Assembly (NCBI RefSeq): GCF_004345615.1 | Contig: NZ_SLWK01000001.1 | Location: forward strand, 1 to 64,000 | Source of the DNA: Natronoflexus pectinivorans | GTDB taxonomy: Bacteria > Bacteroidota > Bacteroidia > Bacteroidales > Marinilabiliaceae | Direction of reading: 5' to 3' | Length of the DNA: 64,000 bases | Part shown: piece after piece, positions 225-21,744 of the stretch | Numbering within the stretch: position 1 is the stretch's first letter | How the letters are laid out: each line of letters starts with the position of its first letter | Notes under the pieces: model-generated | The model's database searches: none | Told to the model about the DNA's origin: nothing | Seen by the model: only the letters and a program-made list of their open reading frames with translations | Made by a program: the position numbers and the translations under genes

Positions 225-257
225 CAAAGATAACAAATTTTTCACTTAATCTCCAAA
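225..257 (-). promoter_or_regulatory. rrn promoter, proximal
   Basis: On the minus strand TTTG (254-257) is followed after 21 nt by TATCTTTG (225-232). This matches the Bacteroidetes -33 TTTG / -7 TAnnTTTG consensus, about 190 bp upstream of 16S. Transcription would start near 218. Confidence 0.75.
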
Positions 258-364: not shown

Positions 365-396
365 CAAAAGTAGAAGAAGAAAGGTTATATTCCAAA
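365..396 (-). promoter_or_regulatory. rrn promoter, distal
   Basis: On the minus strand TTTG (393-396), 20 nt, then TACTTTTG (365-372). It is a second consensus Bacteroidetes promoter in tandem with the one at 225-257. Tandem promoters are normal for rRNA operons. Confidence 0.7.
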
Positions 397-12549: not shown

Positions 12550-13005
12550 ATGGGACAATCGCTATCACAGATGTACATCCATCTGGTTTTTAGCACAAAA
12601 GGAAGGAAGGCATATATAACTCCCCGTATAGAGAAAAGGGTGCACGATTATATGGCGGCCACTCTTATAGAATATCAAAGCCCGGCATTGGTCATTAATT
12701 CAGTCCCTGATCACATACACATCCTATTTCGATTATCTAAAAATTATGCCTTAGCCAAAATTGTTGAAGAGGTCAAAAAACAGTCGTCCAAATGGATAAA
12801 AACCATTGAGGGCGGAACTTCTGAATTCAAATGGCAAATTGGTTATGGTGCTTTTTCGGTAAGCACCTCTAAGATCGACGTCGTTAAAAGATACATTAAT
12901 AACCAAAAAGAACACCACGGCTATCATACCTTTCAGCAGGAGGTAGAAGAATTTGTAAAAGAATATGACATCATAGAATACGATCCGGAATTTTTCTGGG
13001 AATGA
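12550..13005 (+). CDS. REP-associated tyrosine (IS200-like, Y1) transposase
   Basis: A 151-aa HUH single-strand transposase of the IS200/TnpA superfamily. The HUH motif is H55-I-H57 in VPDHIHIL, and the catalytic tyrosine is Y115 in VKRYINNQKEHH. The opening MYIHLVFSTKGR and the ending DIIEYDPEFFW are complete, so the gene looks intact. There is no tnpB. Palindromes on both sides suggest a RAYT, which handles REP-type hairpins, rather than a free insertion sequence. It directly precedes the CRISPR locus. Confidence 0.92.
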   Translation: MGQSLSQMYIHLVFSTKGRKAYITPRIEKRVHDYMAATLIEYQSPALVINSVPDHIHILFRLSKNYALAKIVEEVKKQSSKWIKTIEGGTSEFKWQIGYGAFSVSTSKIDVVKRYINNQKEHHGYHTFQQEVEEFVKEYDIIEYDPEFFWE

Positions 13006-13331: not shown

Positions 13332-13418
13332 AACAAAAGCGAGACAAATTGCTTTGCCCCGCCTTAAATGTTTTCACAACGGAATAATCCTTATTGTGAA
13401 TTGCTTCAAATTGTATAA
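13332..13418 (-). ncRNA. tracrRNA of the type II CRISPR locus
   Basis: On the minus strand, 13416 down to 13393 is an anti-repeat (ATACAATTTGAAG then CAATTCACAAT). It can pair with CRISPR-repeat nt 1-25 in 24 base pairs, with one bulged U (repeat GCTTTC against GAAGC) and a terminal G-U. Next come the short nexus-like stem GGATTATTCC, the single-stranded GTTGTGAAAACATTTAA, and a terminator hairpin at 13339-13362 followed by TTTTGTTATTTT. The RNA is about 85 nt. It is transcribed away from cas9. Both ends are estimated to within a few bases. Confidence 0.88.
13339..13362 (-). terminator. tracrRNA 3' terminator hairpin
   Basis: Minus strand: GCGGGGCAAA, loop GCAA, TTTGTCTCGC. This gives 10 pairs including two G-U, then TTTTGTTATTTT. 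It is both the last tracrRNA stem and the terminator. Confidence 0.85.
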
Positions 13419-13449
13419 CAATATTACAAAATCAAAATATAAATTCAAA
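13419..13449 (-). promoter_or_regulatory. Candidate tracrRNA promoter
   Basis: Minus strand: TTTG (13446-13449), 19 nt, TAATATTG (13419-13426). The second box differs from TAnnTTTG at one base. A start 6-8 nt downstream would place the RNA 5' end at the anti-repeat. Confidence 0.45.
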
Positions 13450-13506
13450 AAATAAATTCCTCCAATGGCTTTAAGTTGTTTGGAGAATACCATAAAATTG
13501 TTTGTT

Positions 13507-16500
13507 ATGAAAAAAGTTTTAGGTCTTGATTTAGGAACAAATTCTATTGGCTGGGCATTGATTGAAGGAAGTTTTGAAGAAAAAAAAGGTAAAATACTGG
13601 GATTAGGAAGCAGAATAATACCAATGAGCCAGGATATTATTGGAGACTTTGGAAAAGGGAACTCTGTTTCCCAAACAGCAGAAAGAACAGCCTACAGAAG
13701 CGTTAGAAGACTAAGGGAACGACACTTGCTTCGTAGAGAAAGAATACACCGTGTATTAAATATTTTGAAGTTTTTACCTGAACATTACGCAAAACAAATT
13801 GATTTTAAAGAAAAACTAGGACAGTTTATCCCTGGTACGGAACCAAAATTAGCCTTCAACATAAATCGTTTCATCTTTATTGATTCCTTTAATGAAATGG
13901 TAGAAGACTTTCGTAATAAACAACCAGACTTGCTAATAAACGAAAATGGAAAGCCAAGATTAATTCCCTACGACTGGACGATCTACTATTTAAGAAAAAA
14001 AGCACTCACGCAAAAAATTAAAAAAGAAGAACTTGCCTGGATAATATTGAATTTTAACCAAAAAAGAGGGTATTATCAATTGAGGGGTGAAGAAGAGGAA
14101 GAAAATAAAAATAAGTTGGTTGAATTCTATTCGCTAAAAGTGGTTGATGTTGTAGCTGATGAAAAGCCGAATAGCAAAGGTGAAGTTTGGTATTCATTGC
14201 ATCTTAATAACGGCTGGATTTATCGTCGTTCAAGTAAGACACCTCTATATGACTGGAAGAATAAAACTCGTGATTTTATTGTAACCACAGACTTAAATGA
14301 TGATGGTAGTGTTAAAACCGATAAAGAAGGTGCAGAGAAGCGTAGCTTTCGGGCTCCGAAAGAAGATGACTGGACTCTTTTGAAAAAGAAAACGGAAAAA
14401 GAAATCAATAATTCATCTGAAACTGTTGGTTCCTATATCTACGAAAACTTACTAATCGACCCATCCCAAAAAATTAAAGGAGATTTAGTTAAAACCATTG
14501 AGCGCAAGTTTTACAAAGATGAATTAGAACAGATTCTAAATAAGCAAAAAGATTTCCACCCGGAACTAAAAAACGAAAACCTATACTACGATTCAATCAG
14601 AGAACTTTACCGAAACAATGAAGGTCACCAGCTTAATTTGAAAACAAAGGATTTTGTTCATCTTATTGTAGAAGATATTATTTTTTACCAACGACCATTG
14701 CGAAGCCAAAAATCAACCATTAGCAATTGTCCTTTAGAATATAGAACATACAAACATAACGGAGAAACCAAAAAGAAACACCTCAAAGCCATTCCTAAAT
14801 CCCACCCCCTTTATCAGGAATTCAGGGTTTGGCAATGGATGTATAATTTAAAAATATACCGAAAAGATGATGATTTTGAGGTGACAAATCTATTTATAAA
14901 ATCAACAGAGGACTATGAAAACCTGTTTGATTTTCTGATGCAACAAAAAGAAGCAGACCATAAAACAATTCTAAAATACTTTTTAAGTGCCGAAGGTTTG
15001 AAAGGCAAAGCATTGAATTCTGAAATTGCGAAATACAGGTGGAACTATGTTTACGACTCTGTTAAGGATGAATCAAAAAAGTATCCCTGCAACGAAACTG
15101 GATACGATATAAGAAGCCGATTAAAAAAAGTTGATGACATTACCCCTGAATTTCTCACCAAAGAGAAAGAAATTAGTTTATGGCACATCATATATTCAGT
15201 CACCGATAAAAAGGATTATGAAAAAGCATTAAAATCTTATGCAACTAAAAATGAACTGGAAATTGAATCTTTTGTAGAAGCATTTTTAAAATTCCCTCCA
15301 TTTAAAAGTGATTATGGAAGTTACTCTGAAAAGGCAATAAAAAGACTTCTGCCATTAATGCGGATAGGAAAATATTGGGAATGGGATAATATTGACATAA
15401 GAACCCGCGAACGCATCAATAAATTTATTACCGGAGAGTATGACGAAAATATAAAAGACAAAGTACGAGAAAAAGCAATAAAACTGGAAAAAGAAGATGA
15501 TTTCCAAGGCCTACAACTTTGGCTTGCAGGCTACGTTGTTTATGATCGGCATTCTGAAGCCGGTGATGTAGCAAAATGGAATTCGGTGGATGAAATGGAT
15601 AAATTTATCAGTCAATTTAAACAACACTCATTACGCAATCCAATTGTTGAACAAGTAGTTACTGAAACGCTAAGAGTAGTGAGAGATATTTGGCAACATT
15701 ATGGTAACGGAGAAAAGAATTTCTTTAATGAGATTCATGTTGAATTGGGTCGTGATTTGAAAAACAATGCAGAAGAACGAAAAAGACTAACGACAATTGT
15801 TTCTGAGAACGAAAACACCAATCAAAGGATTAAAGCCTTACTGATTGAAATGATGAACGACAGCTCCGTTGAGAATGTGCGTCCATACTCTCCCGTGCAA
15901 CAGGAAATTTTAAAAATTTATGAGGATGGCGTATTAAACTCTGATATTGAAATTGAAGACGACATCCAGAAAATAAGCAAGAAAGCAGAACCAACAAAAT
16001 CAGAATTACAACGCTACAAACTCTGGCTCGAACAGAAGTACCGGTCGCCGTACACCGGACAAATCATTCCTTTGAACAAATTATTTACTCCGGAATATGA
16101 GATTGAACATGTCATTCCACAAAGTCGGTACTTTGACGATGGTTTTACGAACAAAGTTATTTGCGAAGCAGCGGTAAATAAACTTAAGGACAATCAACTG
16201 GGGTTAGAATTTATTAAAAATCATTATGGACAGAAGGTTTCAATAGGCTTTGGAAAAGAAGTTGAAGTTTTCACGGAATCGCAATATAAAGAATTTGTAG
16301 ATAAGCACTATGCAAAAAGCCCGGGCAAACGGAACAAATTGCTTCTGGAAGAAATTCCGGAAAAGATGATTCTAAGGCAGCTGAATGACTCCCGCTATAT
16401 AAGCAAATACATCTGTTCAATTTTATCTAATATTGTGCGTGAAGAAAACAACGATGATGGCATAAATTCCAAGAATCTACTTCCCGGTAACGGGAAAGTT

Positions 16501-17871
16501 ACGAATCAATTAAAACAGGACTGGGGTTTAAACGATGTTTGGAATGAGTTGATTTTACCCCGCTTCGAAAGAATGAACGCCATTACCAAGAGCGAACTTT
16601 TCACTACCTATAGTAAAAATCATCAAAAAAAGTTGCCTTCTGTACCACACGAATATAGCAAGGGTTTCAACAAAAAACGTATAGATCACAGACATCATGC
16701 TGTTGACGCATTAATCATTGCATGTGCAACCAGAGACCACATAAACCTATTAAGTAATAAGCATGCAAAATCAAAAGAACGATTTGATTTAAACAGAAAA
16801 CTAAGGAATTACGAAAAAAGAGTTTTTATAAGAGACGGTGAACGTGTAGAAAAAGAAGTCCCCGTCAACTTCATAAAGCCCTGGTCAAATTTTACCGTTG
16901 ACGCGAAAACTTCATTAGAAAAAATGGTGGTTAGCTTTAAGCTTAATCAACGTATAATAAATAAAGCAACCAACCGCTATCAGAAATGGGTAGTTAAGAA
17001 CGGTAAAAAGACCAAAGAATTGGTTGAGCAGGAAGGTCAAAATTGGGCCGTAAGAAAACCCATGCACAAAGAAACCGTATCCGGGAAGGTTCATTTAAAC
17101 AATGTAAAAGTACCAAAAGATAAGATACTAACTGCAACACGTAAAAACATTGATCCTTCATTTAATCATAAAACGATAAAATCAATTACCGATAAAGGGA
17201 TACAAGCGATTTTAGATAATTACCTCACCAGCAGAGGCAATAATTCTGAACTGGCCTTTTCACCTGAAGGACTTGAAGAATTAAATAATAATATACGGCA
17301 CTTTAATAATGGAAAAAATCACCACCCGATTTATAAAGTTCGGGTATATGAAGTGGGTAGTAAATTCAAGCTGGGCGAAAACGGAAATAAAAAGGACAAA
17401 TATGTGGAAGCTGCAAAAGGAACCAACCTCTTCTTTACTGTTTACGAAGACGAAAACGGAAAAAGAAATTATGAAACCATCCCCTTAAACGAAGTCATTG
17501 AACATCAAAAATGGAGAGCCACGCTTTCAAAAGAGGAACAAGCTGAAACACCAATGATACCGGTAAAAAACGACAGGGGGAAATTTCTATTCAGCCTGTC
17601 GCCAAACGATCTGGTATATGTACCCGACGAAGATGAAGATATCAGCACAATAGATCTTAAAAATCCATCGAAAGAACAGGCTGAAAGGATTTATAAGATG
17701 GTTAGCTCTTCAGGAAGCCAATGTTTCTTCATAAAACATGAGGTTGCTAATTCGATTGTGAATAAAATTGAGTATTCAACGTTAAACAAAATGGAAAGAG
17801 ACATAAATGGAATAATGATAAAAGATAAATGTATAAAACTAAATGTGGATAGGTTAGGCAATATCCAGTAA
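13507..17871 (+). CDS. cas9: CRISPR-associated endonuclease Cas9 (type II-C)
   Basis: An RNA-guided DNA nuclease of 1454 aa. ATG at 13507 is chosen because it gives MKKVLGLDLGTNSIGW with RuvC-I D8; the ATG at 13465 would add 14 unrelated residues. The Arg-rich bridge helix is at about 58-85 (RTAYRSVRRLRERHLLRR). RuvC-II E746 is in IHVELGRD. In HNH, H868 is in YEIEHVIPQS and N891 in AVNKLKDNQ, 23 residues apart as in SpCas9; Glu867 replaces the usual Asp before His. RuvC-III H1064 and D1067 are in HHAVDAL. It looks intact. No csn2 or cas4 is nearby, hence II-C. The length is well above the roughly 1000-1100 aa of compact II-C Cas9s but usual for Bacteroidetes. The PAM cannot be read. Confidence 0.97.
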   Translation: MKKVLGLDLGTNSIGWALIEGSFEEKKGKILGLGSRIIPMSQDIIGDFGKGNSVSQTAERTAYRSVRRLRERHLLRRERIHRVLNILKFLPEHYAKQIDFKEKLGQFIPGTEPKLAFNINRFIFIDSFNEMVEDFRNKQPDLLINENGKPRLIPYDWTIYYLRKKALTQKIKKEELAWIILNFNQKRGYYQLRGEEEEENKNKLVEFYSLKVVDVVADEKPNSKGEVWYSLHLNNGWIYRRSSKTPLYDWKNKTRDFIVTTDLNDDGSVKTDKEGAEKRSFRAPKEDDWTLLKKKTEKEINNSSETVGSYIYENLLIDPSQKIKGDLVKTIERKFYKDELEQILNKQKDFHPELKNENLYYDSIRELYRNNEGHQLNLKTKDFVHLIVEDIIFYQRPLRSQKSTISNCPLEYRTYKHNGETKKKHLKAIPKSHPLYQEFRVWQWMYNLKIYRKDDDFEVTNLFIKSTEDYENLFDFLMQQKEADHKTILKYFLSAEGLKGKALNSEIAKYRWNYVYDSVKDESKKYPCNETGYDIRSRLKKVDDITPEFLTKEKEISLWHIIYSVTDKKDYEKALKSYATKNELEIESFVEAFLKFPPFKSDYGSYSEKAIKRLLPLMRIGKYWEWDNIDIRTRERINKFITGEYDENIKDKVREKAIKLEKEDDFQGLQLWLAGYVVYDRHSEAGDVAKWNSVDEMDKFISQFKQHSLRNPIVEQVVTETLRVVRDIWQHYGNGEKNFFNEIHVELGRDLKNNAEERKRLTTIVSENENTNQRIKALLIEMMNDSSVENVRPYSPVQQEILKIYEDGVLNSDIEIEDDIQKISKKAEPTKSELQRYKLWLEQKYRSPYTGQIIPLNKLFTPEYEIEHVIPQSRYFDDGFTNKVICEAAVNKLKDNQLGLEFIKNHYGQKVSIGFGKEVEVFTESQYKEFVDKHYAKSPGKRNKLLLEEIPEKMILRQLNDSRYISKYICSILSNIVREENNDDGINSKNLLPGNGKVTNQLKQDWGLNDVWNELILPRFERMNAITKSELFTTYSKNHQKKLPSVPHEYSKGFNKKRIDHRHHAVDALIIACATRDHINLLSNKHAKSKERFDLNRKLRNYEKRVFIRDGERVEKEVPVNFIKPWSNFTVDAKTSLEKMVVSFKLNQRIINKATNRYQKWVVKNGKKTKELVEQEGQNWAVRKPMHKETVSGKVHLNNVKVPKDKILTATRKNIDPSFNHKTIKSITDKGIQAILDNYLTSRGNNSELAFSPEGLEELNNNIRHFNNGKNHHPIYKVRVYEVGSKFKLGENGNKKDKYVEAAKGTNLFFTVYEDENGKRNYETIPLNEVIEHQKWRATLSKEEQAETPMIPVKNDRGKFLFSLSPNDLVYVPDEDEDISTIDLKNPSKEQAERIYKMVSSSGSQCFFIKHEVANSIVNKIEYSTLNKMERDINGIMIKDKCIKLNVDRLGNIQ

Positions 17872-18394: not shown

Positions 18395-19315
18395 ATGATA
18401 AAAAAAACTCTCTACTTTGGAAATCCCGTCTATTTAAGCACCCGCAACGAGCAGCTGGTTATCAACTTTCCCGATGCCAAGGGACTTGATAATGAATCAG
18501 GGAAAAACACCATCCCCATTGAAGACATTGGAATGGTTATAACGGATCACAAACAGATTACCATTACCCACGCTCTGATTCAGAAGCTTTTGGCCAACAA
18601 TTGTGCCGTTGTAACCTGCGATAACTCACACATGCCACATGGACTTTTGTTAACGCTTAGCGGAAATTCAGTTCAGACTGAAAGATATGAGCAACAGATC
18701 AAAGCATCCATTCCGTTAAAGAAACAGTTGTGGCAACAAACCATTAAATGTAAAATCAGTAACCAAAGCACCCTATTGTCCCGGTTAAGAGGAATCAGAA
18801 CAGATAACATGCAACACTGGGCATCCAGCGTGACATCCGGCGACAGTGAAAACCATGAGGCGAGAGCAGCAGCGTTCTACTGGGCAAATTTCTTTCCCAT
18901 TGATGGTTTCAAAAGAGGACGCGAAGAGGAGCCACCTAACAATCTTCTGAATTACGGTTATGCCATTTTGCGGGCAATTATTGCACGTTCGCTTGTTTCC
19001 AGCGGACTGATGCCAACTTTAGGCATTCATCATCATAACCGATACAATGCCTATTGCCTGGCAGATGACATCATGGAGCCGTACCGACCGTTTGTGGATA
19101 AAATAGTTTATAACATTGTGGATTCCGGCATTGATTATACGCAACTATCCAAAGAGGTGAAGTGGCAACTGCTGAGCATACCACAAACCGATGTGATGAT
19201 TAATGACAAACGAAGCCCTTTGATGATTGCTGCTTCTCAAACCACGGCATCGCTCTTTAATTGTTTCGAAGGCAGCGCCAGAAGAATTGCTTATCCAAAA
19301 TTTACCGAAACATGA
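18395..19315 (+). CDS. cas1: CRISPR integrase Cas1 (type II)
   Basis: Cas1, with Cas2, inserts new spacers into the array. The 306-aa protein has the N-terminal beta domain ([24 protein letters not shown]) and the C-terminal helical domain. Likely metal ligands are E155 ([12 protein letters not shown]), a His in the [14 protein letters not shown] cluster at 212-214, and an acidic residue near 226-229 (DDIMEPYRP). This is the type II branch of Cas1, without fusion. The stop overlaps the cas2 start (ATGA). Confidence 0.96.
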
Positions 19316-19644
19316 ACCGATTAAATGAATTCAGAGTTATGTGGGTAATGGTACTGTTTGATTTGCCAACAGAGACAAAAAAAGACCGGAAAATATCCGG
19401 CGATTTCAGAAAAAAAATGTTGAAAGATGGATTCGTGATGTTTCAATTCTCCATCTACTTGAGGCACTGCCCCAGCCGCGAAAATGCAGAAGTACATATT
19501 AAACGGGTAAAAAAAATGCTGCCGCCCAAGGGACATGTTGGCATTTTAAGAATTACCGACAAACAGTTTGGCGACATGGAACTGTTTATGGGAAAAGAGC
19601 CGGATAAAAAAGAGACGCCATATCTGCAACTGGAGCTTTTTTAA
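19312..19644 (+). CDS. cas2: CRISPR-associated Cas2
   Basis: Cas2 forms the structural centre of the Cas1-Cas2 integrase. The 110-aa protein has a ferredoxin-like fold with the family signature [16 protein letters not shown] and [17 protein letters not shown] at 19312 overlaps the cas1 stop by 4 bp and gives the normal Cas2 length; an upstream in-frame ATG at 19261 lies inside cas1 and is rejected. The bidirectional terminator at 19702 and the array follow. Confidence 0.96.
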
Positions 19645-19701: not shown

Positions 19702-19730
19702 AAAAAAAGTCCGGTGGCCGGACTTTTTTT
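19702..19730. terminator. Bidirectional terminator between cas2 and the array
   Basis: Stem GTCCGG-TGG-CCGGAC, extended by A7 on the left and T7 on the right. It can stop cas transcripts on the plus strand and crRNA-array transcripts on the minus strand, which fits the opposing directions proposed here. Confidence 0.9.
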
Positions 19731-20535
19731 GCATTTCGCAACAGCTCATTTTTTTATCCTAAATATTGGCACAAACAACTCAATGACAACCCTTTGAATA
19801 GAGGTCTGCTGTTACCAATATGTCAAAGATACAATTTGAAAGCAATTCACAACTGCCAAAAGAAGTTTCCAGTACCTCTGTTAGCTGTTACCAATATGTC
19901 AAAGATACAATTTGAAAGCAATTCACAACGCTGAAATATGCAGTCCGTCCCCAGTAGTCGCTGTTACCAATATGTCAAAGATACAATTTGAAAGCAATTC
20001 ACAACTCGCCCTGCCGTTCTGCGAAAATTGAAGGGGCTGTTACCAATATGTCAAAGATACAATTTGAAAGCAATTCACAACTCAAATCGCTTTTCCCATA
20101 ATCCGTAGTTTGCTGTTACCAATATGTCAAAGATACAATTTGAAAGCAATTCACAACTACGGCAACGAGAGTTTACCGTCAAACGTTGCTGTTACCAATA
20201 TGTCAAAGATACAATTTGAAAGCAATTCACAACGCCTACTCGCAAATCGGTTATATTGCTGCGCTGTTACCAATATGTCAAAGATACAATTTGAAAGCAA
20301 TTCACAACTGTTTTAAATTCACTGATTTCTTCTTTAAGGCTGTTACCAATATGTCAAAGATACAATTTGAAAGCAATTCACAACAGATTTTGATAAGAAC
20401 TATTTTTCTGTGACGCTGTTACCAATATGTCAAAGATACAATTTGAAAGCAATTCACAACAGGGAGGTGTTTTATACACAGAAAACTATGCTGTTACCAA
20501 TATGTCAAAGATACAATTTGAAAGCAATTCACAAC

Positions 20536-20565
20536 CTCCTGCTGATACTGTATCAGCAGAGCAGA
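20536..20565 (-). other. Palindromic spacer
   Basis: Within this spacer, 20539-20559 is CTGCTGATAC-T-GTATCAGCAG, two perfect 10-bp arms around one central base. No other spacer shows this. Confidence 0.85.
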
Positions 20566-21095
20566 GCTGTTACCAATATGTCAAAGATACAATTTGAAAG
20601 CAATTCACAACGCGCTCTAAAAACAAAATATCAATTTAAAGCTGTTACCAATATGTCAAAGATACAATTTGAAAGCAATTCACAACGCCATAATTAAAGC
20701 ATTTAAACGGTTTAATGCTGTTACCAATATGTCAAAGATACAATTTGAAAGCAATTCACAACATTAGACGCTCAGAACCCGAATAAAGTCAGCTGTTACC
20801 AATATGTCAAAGATACAATTTGAAAGCAATTCACAACCCGGCTTAGAATCTGTTACTAATTGGGATAGCTGTTACCAATATGTCAAAGATACAATTTGAA
20901 AGCAATTCACAACACAATCCCGGCAAATGACAAGTCTGAAATAGCTGTTACCAATATGTCAAAGATACAATTTGAAAGCAATTCACAACAGGTAAATGGA
21001 CTTGAAGAAAGTATCGAAGGCTGTTACCAATATGTCAAAGATACAATTTGAAAGCAATTCACAACACCGGTAATGAGGTAGATTTATTCATGTTG

Positions 21096-21171
21096 GCTGT
21101 TACCAATATGTCAAAGATACAATTTGAATTGGAGCGAAGCGGAAATCGGTGGAGCCAAAGCAATTCACAAC
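21096..21171 (-). repeat. Terminal CRISPR repeat with a 30-bp insert
   Basis: The last repeat keeps its first 33 plus-strand bases (to TTTGAA) and its last 13 (AGCAATTCACAAC). They are separated by 30 bp starting TTGGAGCGAAGCGG and ending GGTGGAGCCAA. The total is 76 bp, exactly one repeat plus one spacer length. The insert separates TTG from TATCTTTG of the repeat-borne promoter. This repeat is at the crRNA 5' end and so is not used as the 3' handle of any crRNA. Confidence 0.9.
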
Positions 21172-21744
21172 TGCCTAATAGGTAATATAGCAAAGACATA
21201 GTTTCCTGCTAAACTGACTTTAATAATTTATTTGTATATATTTGAAGTGTTACTGGGGATGCGTCCCCGGGAAGCCGTAAAACGGTAATTATAAATATAA
21301 TTACCGTTTTGCCTTTCTAATTAAAGACTGTTAATCAAGACTTCCCTGTTTCCTTGAATACCACTAATTTGAGAATACCAGCAAATTATAAATATAATCA
21401 AAGTTTCCCTTTAAAACACATTAATCATCTTGAGACTGTTTCAAAATATATTGAATTAATCATCAAAGCTGAATTTAACAGATACATCATTTTTTGCAAT
21501 TTTGGTCTGTATTCGATGTGCAGCTGGTGAATTCAAATTGAATTTTCGGCTCGTGTTACAAATAAATATCAGCCATTAATCAAAGGATTTGAGCAGTTCA
21601 TCATTTTAAAATTGATTCAAACATCTAAATTGTAGTAACTTGCAATAACAACAACACCCCCATTGATCGCATGATCATTTTTTTTTACTCTTTTTCGGTA
21701 TTTCGGTACTGTTTTGAATTTTATATTAACTTAAAACATCAGTT
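21172..21744. other. Array flank / possible leader, no gene
   Basis: 573 bp of A+T-rich sequence between the interrupted repeat and the T9SS gene. It contains GGGGA-TGCG-TCCCC (21255-21268) and a perfect 13-bp hairpin (21279-21310). The rest shows no ORF of note. If the array is read from this side, this is the leader; by analogy with other II-C loci it may instead be the trailer. Confidence 0.55.
21279..21310. terminator. Perfect hairpin beside the array
   Basis: AAAACGGTAATTA, loop TAAATA, TAATTACCGTTTT. A 13-bp perfect stem flanked by A and T runs on both strands, so it can act as an intrinsic terminator in either direction, perhaps insulating the array. Confidence 0.65.

Follow-up and report, generated by a model that had tools for sequence, protein, structure and literature searches.

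Candidate sigma-A promoters within the repeats of Bacteroidota type II-C CRISPR arrays

The DNA analysed here (the window) is a stretch of 64,000 nucleotides from Natronoflexus pectinivorans, positions 1 to 64,000 of contig NZ_SLWK01000001.1, and its CRISPR array raises the question of where transcription of the crRNAs begins. An earlier note on this DNA had proposed that each repeat holds a Bacteroidetes-type promoter, a proposal now supported on comparative grounds: the motif is conserved, its core is constrained and pairing with the tracrRNA does not account for it. Judging from sequence comparison, this is very probably a type II-C locus in which every repeat doubles as a promoter for the Bacteroidota housekeeping sigma factor (sigma-A). 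RNA polymerase would start at about nt 35-36 of each repeat, and the transcript would consist of the last 11-12 nt of that repeat, the spacer and the next repeat, whose 5' half would pair with the tracrRNA for RNase III cutting and loading into Cas9. A promoter in the leader would not be needed. If this is right, segments of the repeat have separate jobs, with tracrRNA pairing in the 5' half and the promoter in the 3' half, and each stored phage memory (spacer) could be read on its own.

The locus and its repeat-borne box

The locus is of type II-C, as cas9, cas1 and cas2 are present with a tracrRNA anti-repeat near cas9, whereas csn2 and cas4 gave no match among the eight proteins scanned around it. 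An IS200-type (Y1) transposase gene (12550-13005, plus strand) precedes the tracrRNA-cas9 region. The main features are as follows.

13465..17871, plus strand: cas9, with RuvC_III, HNH_4 and the Cas9 bridge helix
18395..19315, plus strand: cas1 (Pfam Cas1)
19261..19644, plus strand: cas2 (Pfam Cas2)
19702..19730, no strand given: terminator-like hairpin AAAAAAAGTCCGG-CCA-CCGGACTTTTTTT in the leader, between array and cas2
19808..21171, minus strand (crRNA orientation): CRISPR array of 17 identical 46-bp repeats and one split first repeat, with spacers of 29-30 nt
21277..21312, no strand given: hairpin upstream of the array, a possible insulator against outside transcription

The 17 identical repeats run from 21065 down to 19808, and Rfam RF01362 (CRISPR-DR49) matches them with 41.9 bits, the cut-off being 41. 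Array and cas2 converge, with the leader hairpin between them; the outer stem of this hairpin is kept in the close relative L009, and a terminator scan did not flag it. The hairpin upstream of the array was called as a plus-strand terminator (0.8 expected in shuffles), with -22.7 kcal/mol for the 80-base stretch. Overall, the promoter and terminator scan, which uses sigma-70 motifs, returned 9 sites against 8.4 expected.

The promoter candidate within the repeat, and the host promoters to which it can be compared, lie at these positions.

19824..19831, minus strand: -7 box TATCTTTG, nt 23-30 of the leader-proximal repeat, common to all repeats and conserved across Bacteroidota II-C repeats
19900, 19976, 20052, 20128, 20204, 20279, 20355, 20431, 20506, 20582, 20657, 20733, 20808, 20884, 20960, 21036 and 21112, minus strand: starts of the other -7 boxes
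19850..19852, minus strand: TTG, nt 2-4 of the leader-proximal repeat, a candidate -33 element whose presence is seen and whose role is unsupported
21096..21171, minus strand: split upstream-most (18th) repeat, with nt 1-15 at 21157-21171, a 30-nt insert at 21127-21156 and nt 16-46 intact at 21096-21126
225..232, minus strand: rrn promoter box TATCTTTG, an internal yardstick for host promoter grammar
365-372, minus strand: second rrn box TACTTTTG, upstream of the 16S rRNA 5' end

On the crRNA strand, TATCTTTG is found in all 18 repeats of the window, the 17 perfect ones and the split 18th, in which the box is intact at 21112-21119. In the 46-bp minus-strand repeat it stands 18 nt from the TTG, with both elements exactly where the earlier note had placed them. 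That note had also likened the repeat box to the two rrn boxes, and the likeness holds: both lie upstream of the 16S rRNA 5' end, which lies at 1-39 on the minus strand (a truncated Rfam match of 27.6 bits, under the gathering score).

By itself, a box in one repeat is no evidence for a promoter, because TAnnTTTG occurs in the window at the chance rate (68 occurrences against 69.7 in shuffles); the window alone was accordingly rejected as evidence. The longer pattern TTG-N18-TAnnTTTG is found 17 times, always inside the array, against 1.8 in shuffles, but these matches are not independent, being 17 copies of a single repeat.

The insert of the split repeat carries a 26-base pattern for which a genome search at up to 3 mismatches returned no second copy. 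Upstream-most repeats are split after nt 14-15 in three arrays, with inserts of 30 nt (window), 29 nt (L116) and 54 nt (L147). Inserts of spacer length in two of three split first repeats, at nearly the same place, suggest either misplaced integration of spacers or a means of disabling first repeats that has recurred between arrays.

Conservation and constraint across the phylum

We examined 147 Bacteroidota loci, comprising the window and 22, 64 and 60 loci from separate samplings. The set of 64 derives from 65 genomes above the cut-off minus G338 (short contig), and the set of 60 from 92 genomes above the cut-off, 60 of them new and 14 already in the sample. Arrays were present in 109 loci, and 107 were usable after L166, L202 and a non-CRISPR repeat in L154 had been dropped; these gave 100 distinct repeats, 71 long (44-50 nt) and 29 short. 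The orientation of L083, L111, L150, L159 and L194 was set by hand. L014 and L146 are apparently the same contig (equal length, equal arrays), and each distinct repeat, like each distinct repeat end, entered the counts a single time. None of the counts draws on the Cas9 tree that was built. In 97 of the 109 arrays, crRNAs and cas9 are encoded on opposite strands and the downstream end faces cas9; ten of the 12 that deviate are 36-nt arrays. The 36-nt GATATT arrays L076, L077, L082, L083, L088, L089, L091, L108, L198 and L204 reverse the usual layout, with the crRNA strand that of cas9 and the leader end away from it.

The earlier note had called for a conservation test, and its outcome is positive for the -7 box. 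Exact TAnnTTTG is present on the crRNA strand in 32 of the 71 distinct long repeats and on the opposite strand in none of the 71. At least five of the six box bases are found in 65 of the 71, so that 39 lack the exact box and 6 have fewer than five of its bases. Among the first 41 long repeats sampled, 14 carry the exact box against 1.5 expected from dinucleotide shuffles of nt 16 to the end, a count reached in none of 1000 shuffles. Short repeats have it exactly in 4 of 29 and with at least five of six bases in 14 of 29; in the first set of 23, the 4 exact cases compare with 0.47 expected, and 1 in 1000 shuffles was as high.

Could the box recur only through descent of all these repeats from one ancestral repeat? 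Such descent would agree with the uniformity of the box, which reads TATCTTTG in 26 of the 32 exact long repeats, many of which share flanks. We therefore lessened shared ancestry by clustering the long repeats on their 3' part (nt 16 to the end, with <65% identity between clusters). The roughly 28 diverged clusters still have the exact box in 30% of cases against 3% in shuffles, the highest shuffle giving 18%. The box also starts at places between nt 17 and nt 32, and three related 36-nt repeats (L107, L111 and L112) keep TA and TTTG with GA, AT and GT, respectively, as the intervening nn.

Comparison of closely related repeats weighs further against descent alone. Nearest repeats were paired with the box anchored in one partner only; this one-sided test replaced a first version in which both partners had to match the box, which was biased by construction. 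Over 19 pairs, core bases change less than their neighbors: T-12 and A-11 were each substituted in 2 of 19, T-8 in 1 and T-7 in none, against 10/38 at nn and 30/114 and 35/114 in the six bases on either side (65/228 for the flanks). Fisher's test of this contrast gives p 2.7e-5, and p 7.6e-5 with a looser anchor giving 31 pairs. T-6 and G-5 were substituted in 4 of 19 each, not clearly under the flanks. Because T-12, A-11, T-8 and T-7 resist substitution and T-6 and G-5 do not clearly do so, the conserved core is TAnnTT, with a looser final TG. We give common descent as the sole cause very little chance of being correct, and read the box as a constrained promoter element.

Type I-C loci of Bacteroidota served as a control and have the box in 0 of 13 distinct repeats, though the control is weak because those repeats are GC-rich. 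The exact box sits at nt 24 in two Bacteroidales plasmid loci, from Phocaeicola (L205) and Prevotella nigrescens (L206), and a Persicobacter repeat (L207) has five of its six bases. One subgroup of long repeats (L064, L085, L090, L094, L115, L116, L012, L020 and L117) reads TTCTTTG without TA in front. By eye, several of these have a second box-like stretch further on (GATATTTG, TATATTTA, TAAGTTTG), possibly a shifted promoter register paired with a TTG at nt 9-11.

Among the 36-nt repeats of Bacteroidota, 16 of 29 distinct ones end in TACATT, TAGATT or GATATT and the other 13 end otherwise; an ending in TAnnAT occurs in none of the 29. They are weaker cases, because T-6 and G-5 would have to come from the spacer and T-12 is missing in 9 of the 16 (GATATT).

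Outside Bacteroidota, 15 Cas9 loci were taken from plasmid records, with the Cas9 subtype judged by annotated neighbors, and 8 had arrays. Tistrella (L214) and Limnohabitans (L216) had no clear orientation and were left out. The six remaining repeats, whose orientation rests on their 5' ends, end in TACAAT (Ilyobacter), TATGCT (Pigmentibacter), TAGAAT (Bosea), TACAAT (Azospirillum), TATAAT (Subdoligranulum) and TATAAT (Sphingobium), that is, in sigma-70-like boxes, TAnnnT in 6/6 and TAnnAT in 5/6, with exact TAnnTTTG from nt 16 to the end in 0/6. The best match outside the array is to the 3' half in five of the six, with a tie in Sphingobium, which would follow from a tracrRNA spanning the entire repeat but also from a wrongly assigned orientation.

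It is conceivable, though we lean slightly against it, that II-C repeats have been adapted to the host phylum's sigma factor, with TAnnTT(TG) filling the slot in Bacteroidota that TAnnAT or TAnnnT fills elsewhere; arrays moved between the two would then fall silent until their repeats change. In the long-repeat class, which is common in Bacteroidota, an extra turn of DNA would then put the start inside the repeat and give every crRNA a repeat-derived 5' tag of 11-12 nt plus the whole 30-nt spacer, unlike in Campylobacter. If the repeats are indeed promoters, a phylum-level barrier to the transfer of II-C arrays becomes testable.

The tracrRNA duplex and the predicted start

A box inside a repeat might instead be conserved for the repeat:anti-repeat duplex, on which the tracrRNA, RNase III and Cas9 depend, without any role in transcription. 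Conservation is strong in the 5' half of the repeat, which pairs with the tracrRNA. The tracrRNA gene in the window has two relevant features.

13394..13416, minus strand: tracrRNA anti-repeat upstream of cas9, matching repeat nt 2-25 unbroken save one missing T
13419..13426, minus strand: probable tracrRNA -7 box TAATATTG, with 5 of 6 bases

The anti-repeat, which is conserved in Alkalitalea (L009), covers the TAT of the box and leaves CTTTG unmatched; a gapped alignment carried the pairing on to nt 37. Its overlap with TAT favors a role in the duplex, as does the finding that in some 36-nt repeats (L097, L101, L103 and L104) the alignment with the anti-repeat extends as far as the 3' end or close to it. 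CTTTG is, however, unpaired in the window, and in the repeats compared above nn is more variable than TA and TT.

The tracrRNA genes appear to use the same grammar. In 35 long-repeat loci with a clear anti-repeat, exact TAnnTTTG lies 5-16 nt before the anti-repeat core in 15, against 0, 0 and 1 in three control intervals further upstream; at least five of six bases are found in 29, against 8, 12 and 7. We take the exact boxes, whose nn is varied, as putative tracrRNA promoters (L010, L011, L013, L018, L022, L023, L026, L063, L065, L071, L072, L075, L080, L120 and L121, among which the pairs L010/L011 and L013/L026 have near-identical repeats). With the start set five bases past the G of the box, the predicted tracrRNA 5' end would pair opposite repeat nt 15-26. 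In none of the 15 loci would it extend past the first base of the crRNA box, and for this reason duplex pairing does not explain the box; by this estimate, the tracrRNA in these long-repeat loci does not cover TTTG. We consider it highly improbable that the duplex alone maintains the box. In F. psychrophilum, the mechanism of tracrRNA transcription was not revealed, according to the available text of its paper (PMC10309648).

The reading of the box as a promoter also predicts where transcripts begin. Sigma-A (sigma-ABfr) promoters of Bacteroidota have a TAnnTTTG -7 box with the start 4-5 nt downstream (PMC6847099, PMC9723704), a spacing also given for start sites in F. johnsoniae, where the -33 element is weak too (PMC6847099). 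The promoters in those papers are ordinary gene promoters with a weak -33 and are not multiplied as CRISPR repeats. The window repeat contains the same -7 box, from which the start is placed as follows.

19818..19819, minus strand: predicted transcription start, nt 35-36 of the leader-proximal repeat, based on the box-to-start spacing and 11-12 nt before the repeat end

The start would lie inside the repeat because the box (nt 23-30 of the 46) stops 16 nt short of the repeat's end. The F. johnsoniae spacing (PMC6847099) moves it from the nt 36-38 given in the earlier note to nt 35-36. An A stands at the place of nt 35 in 21 of the 32 exact long repeats, where A makes up 43% of the 3' tail.

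The TTG at nt 2-4 had been assigned to the -33 element, and this part of the proposal is unsupported. It sits within the conserved tracrRNA-pairing half, and a TTG 17-20 nt before the box falls from 22/29 in consensus repeats to 4/29 in degenerate first repeats.

Repeat-borne promoters in II-C arrays are established, by dRNA-seq in the case of C. jejuni (PMC3656092), and N. meningitidis has a promoter in each repeat, as described in PMC3656092 and PMC5006608. Like these systems, the window locus has only cas9, cas1 and cas2, a tracrRNA, a candidate promoter element for each crRNA in the upstream repeat and spacers added downstream. The form differs, as in Campylobacter and Neisseria the -10 box lies in the 3' part of the repeat and the starts are drawn within the spacer (PMC3656092), whereas here TAnnTTTG is at nt 23-30 of 46 and the predicted start falls inside the repeat.

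Within the phylum, repeat-encoded promoters have already been proposed for Flavobacterium columnare and F. psychrophilum from TTG alone, which lies 33 bp or 35 bp upstream of the spacer; RNA-seq gave eight reads on the F. columnare array and reads also in F. psychrophilum (PMC8092290, PMC10309648). In the available text of these papers, TAnnTTTG is named at the Fp2Cas9 gene and not in the repeat. The Flavobacterium arrays share with ours the transcription towards the leader end, but the TTG is the very part that finds no support in the long-repeat comparison.

In the literature searched, with most subscription journals beyond reach, we found no report of TAnnTTTG in CRISPR repeats. What appears to be new is that the repeat holds the -7 box of this phylum, that this box lies at the limit of the tracrRNA duplex or outside it, and that the predicted start falls in the repeat and not in the spacer. 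If correct, crRNA and tracrRNA starts can be predicted for many Bacteroidota Cas9 systems, among them L156, which has the published B. fragilis II-C repeat (PMC9367070).

Array polarity and decay of the oldest repeat

At least one mismatch is found in the upstream-most repeat of 41 of 55 long arrays, but in the downstream-most repeat of only 2 of 72. These two are L194, with 2 mismatches at the last bases, and L014, whose 22 mismatches suggest that the array was extended spuriously. The old end is therefore upstream, and we infer from this decay that spacers are added downstream of crRNA transcription, where new spacers are known to enter II-C arrays (PMC12080349, PMC8092290). The split repeat at the upstream end of the window array is in line with such addition.

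This polarity bears on the most conventional alternative, in which one long precursor starts from a promoter outside the array and the box is a relic or incidental. Most CRISPR types are transcribed in this way, as is generally known (PMC8092290), and by eye the minus strand shows a weak box-like TGTCTTTG some 19 nt ahead of the first repeat. According to the available text, the R. anatipestifer study found no promoters in the repeats and predicted some in the leader, but those leader promoters were predicted with the BDGP neural-network tool and not with Bacteroidota motifs (PMC5006608). In the window the newest end faces cas2, downstream of crRNA transcription, so that a leader promoter would transcribe the wrong strand. 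A precursor would also leave unexplained both the constraint on TA and TT and the retention of the 3' half in the oldest repeats. We regard it as very improbable. The claim of the earlier note that the array needs no leader promoter fits the position of the newest end. If the repeats carry promoters, two earlier readings would be revised, that of no promoter in Riemerella and that of TTG only in Flavobacterium.

The decay itself is unevenly distributed. Across the upstream-most repeats of 55 long arrays, nt 1-22 are changed at 327/1210 positions and nt 23 to the end at 28/1344. T-12, A-11, T-8 and T-7 are all kept in 26 of the 29 degenerate first repeats with a recognizable box; the other three are L090, in which an insertion displaced the box (by eye), L151, which has lost it, and L173, with a changed T-12. 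Frames of the same shape are kept in 121/493 cases upstream of the box and in 253/276 downstream of it, and because of the latter, retention is shown for the whole 3' half and not for the box alone.

The fitted end of decay lies at or before nt 24 in 30 of 33 distinct long first repeats with at least 4 mismatches, and beyond it in L023, L090 and L151. Since break detection favors shallow breaks, short leftover 3' ends at spacer distance were also sought. Leftovers of at least 5 bases were found in four arrays (L061, L068, L118 and L160, the last with 14), against 0-1 at control distances, and L061, L068 and L118 may be deeper truncations of the first repeat. With these three counted as deep and L160 as shallow, there are 6/37 deep breaks, whereas breaks spread uniformly would give 17/41 (p 0.0013).

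The 3' half of the oldest repeat might also be kept for a reason other than a promoter, such as an unknown signal for 5' processing of spacer 1; retention of the whole half, and not of the box alone, speaks for this. RNase III processing in II-C systems uses the tracrRNA-paired part of the repeat, which is the 5' half, the part that is lost, and the retained motif matches the box at the rrn and tracrRNA genes. A reason other than a promoter seems very unlikely to us. Should the repeats be promoters, this would help to explain why decay of the oldest repeat falls mostly on its 5' half. Feussner et al. (2025) report that the first repeat of II-C arrays is the most mutated, mostly in its first 15 nt, and mention promoter retention in their discussion (PMC12080349). 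They read the degenerate repeat mainly as blocking an extraneous crRNA, whereas we compare how far decay reaches inwards with the position of the -7 box.

A collapsed array in the same genus (L224, genome G726) consists of a degenerate first repeat, one spacer and one further repeat, after which there is none. In its first repeat, nt 32 and 8 of the initial 13 bases differ and the box is intact, and by eye the upstream flank resembles that of the window array.
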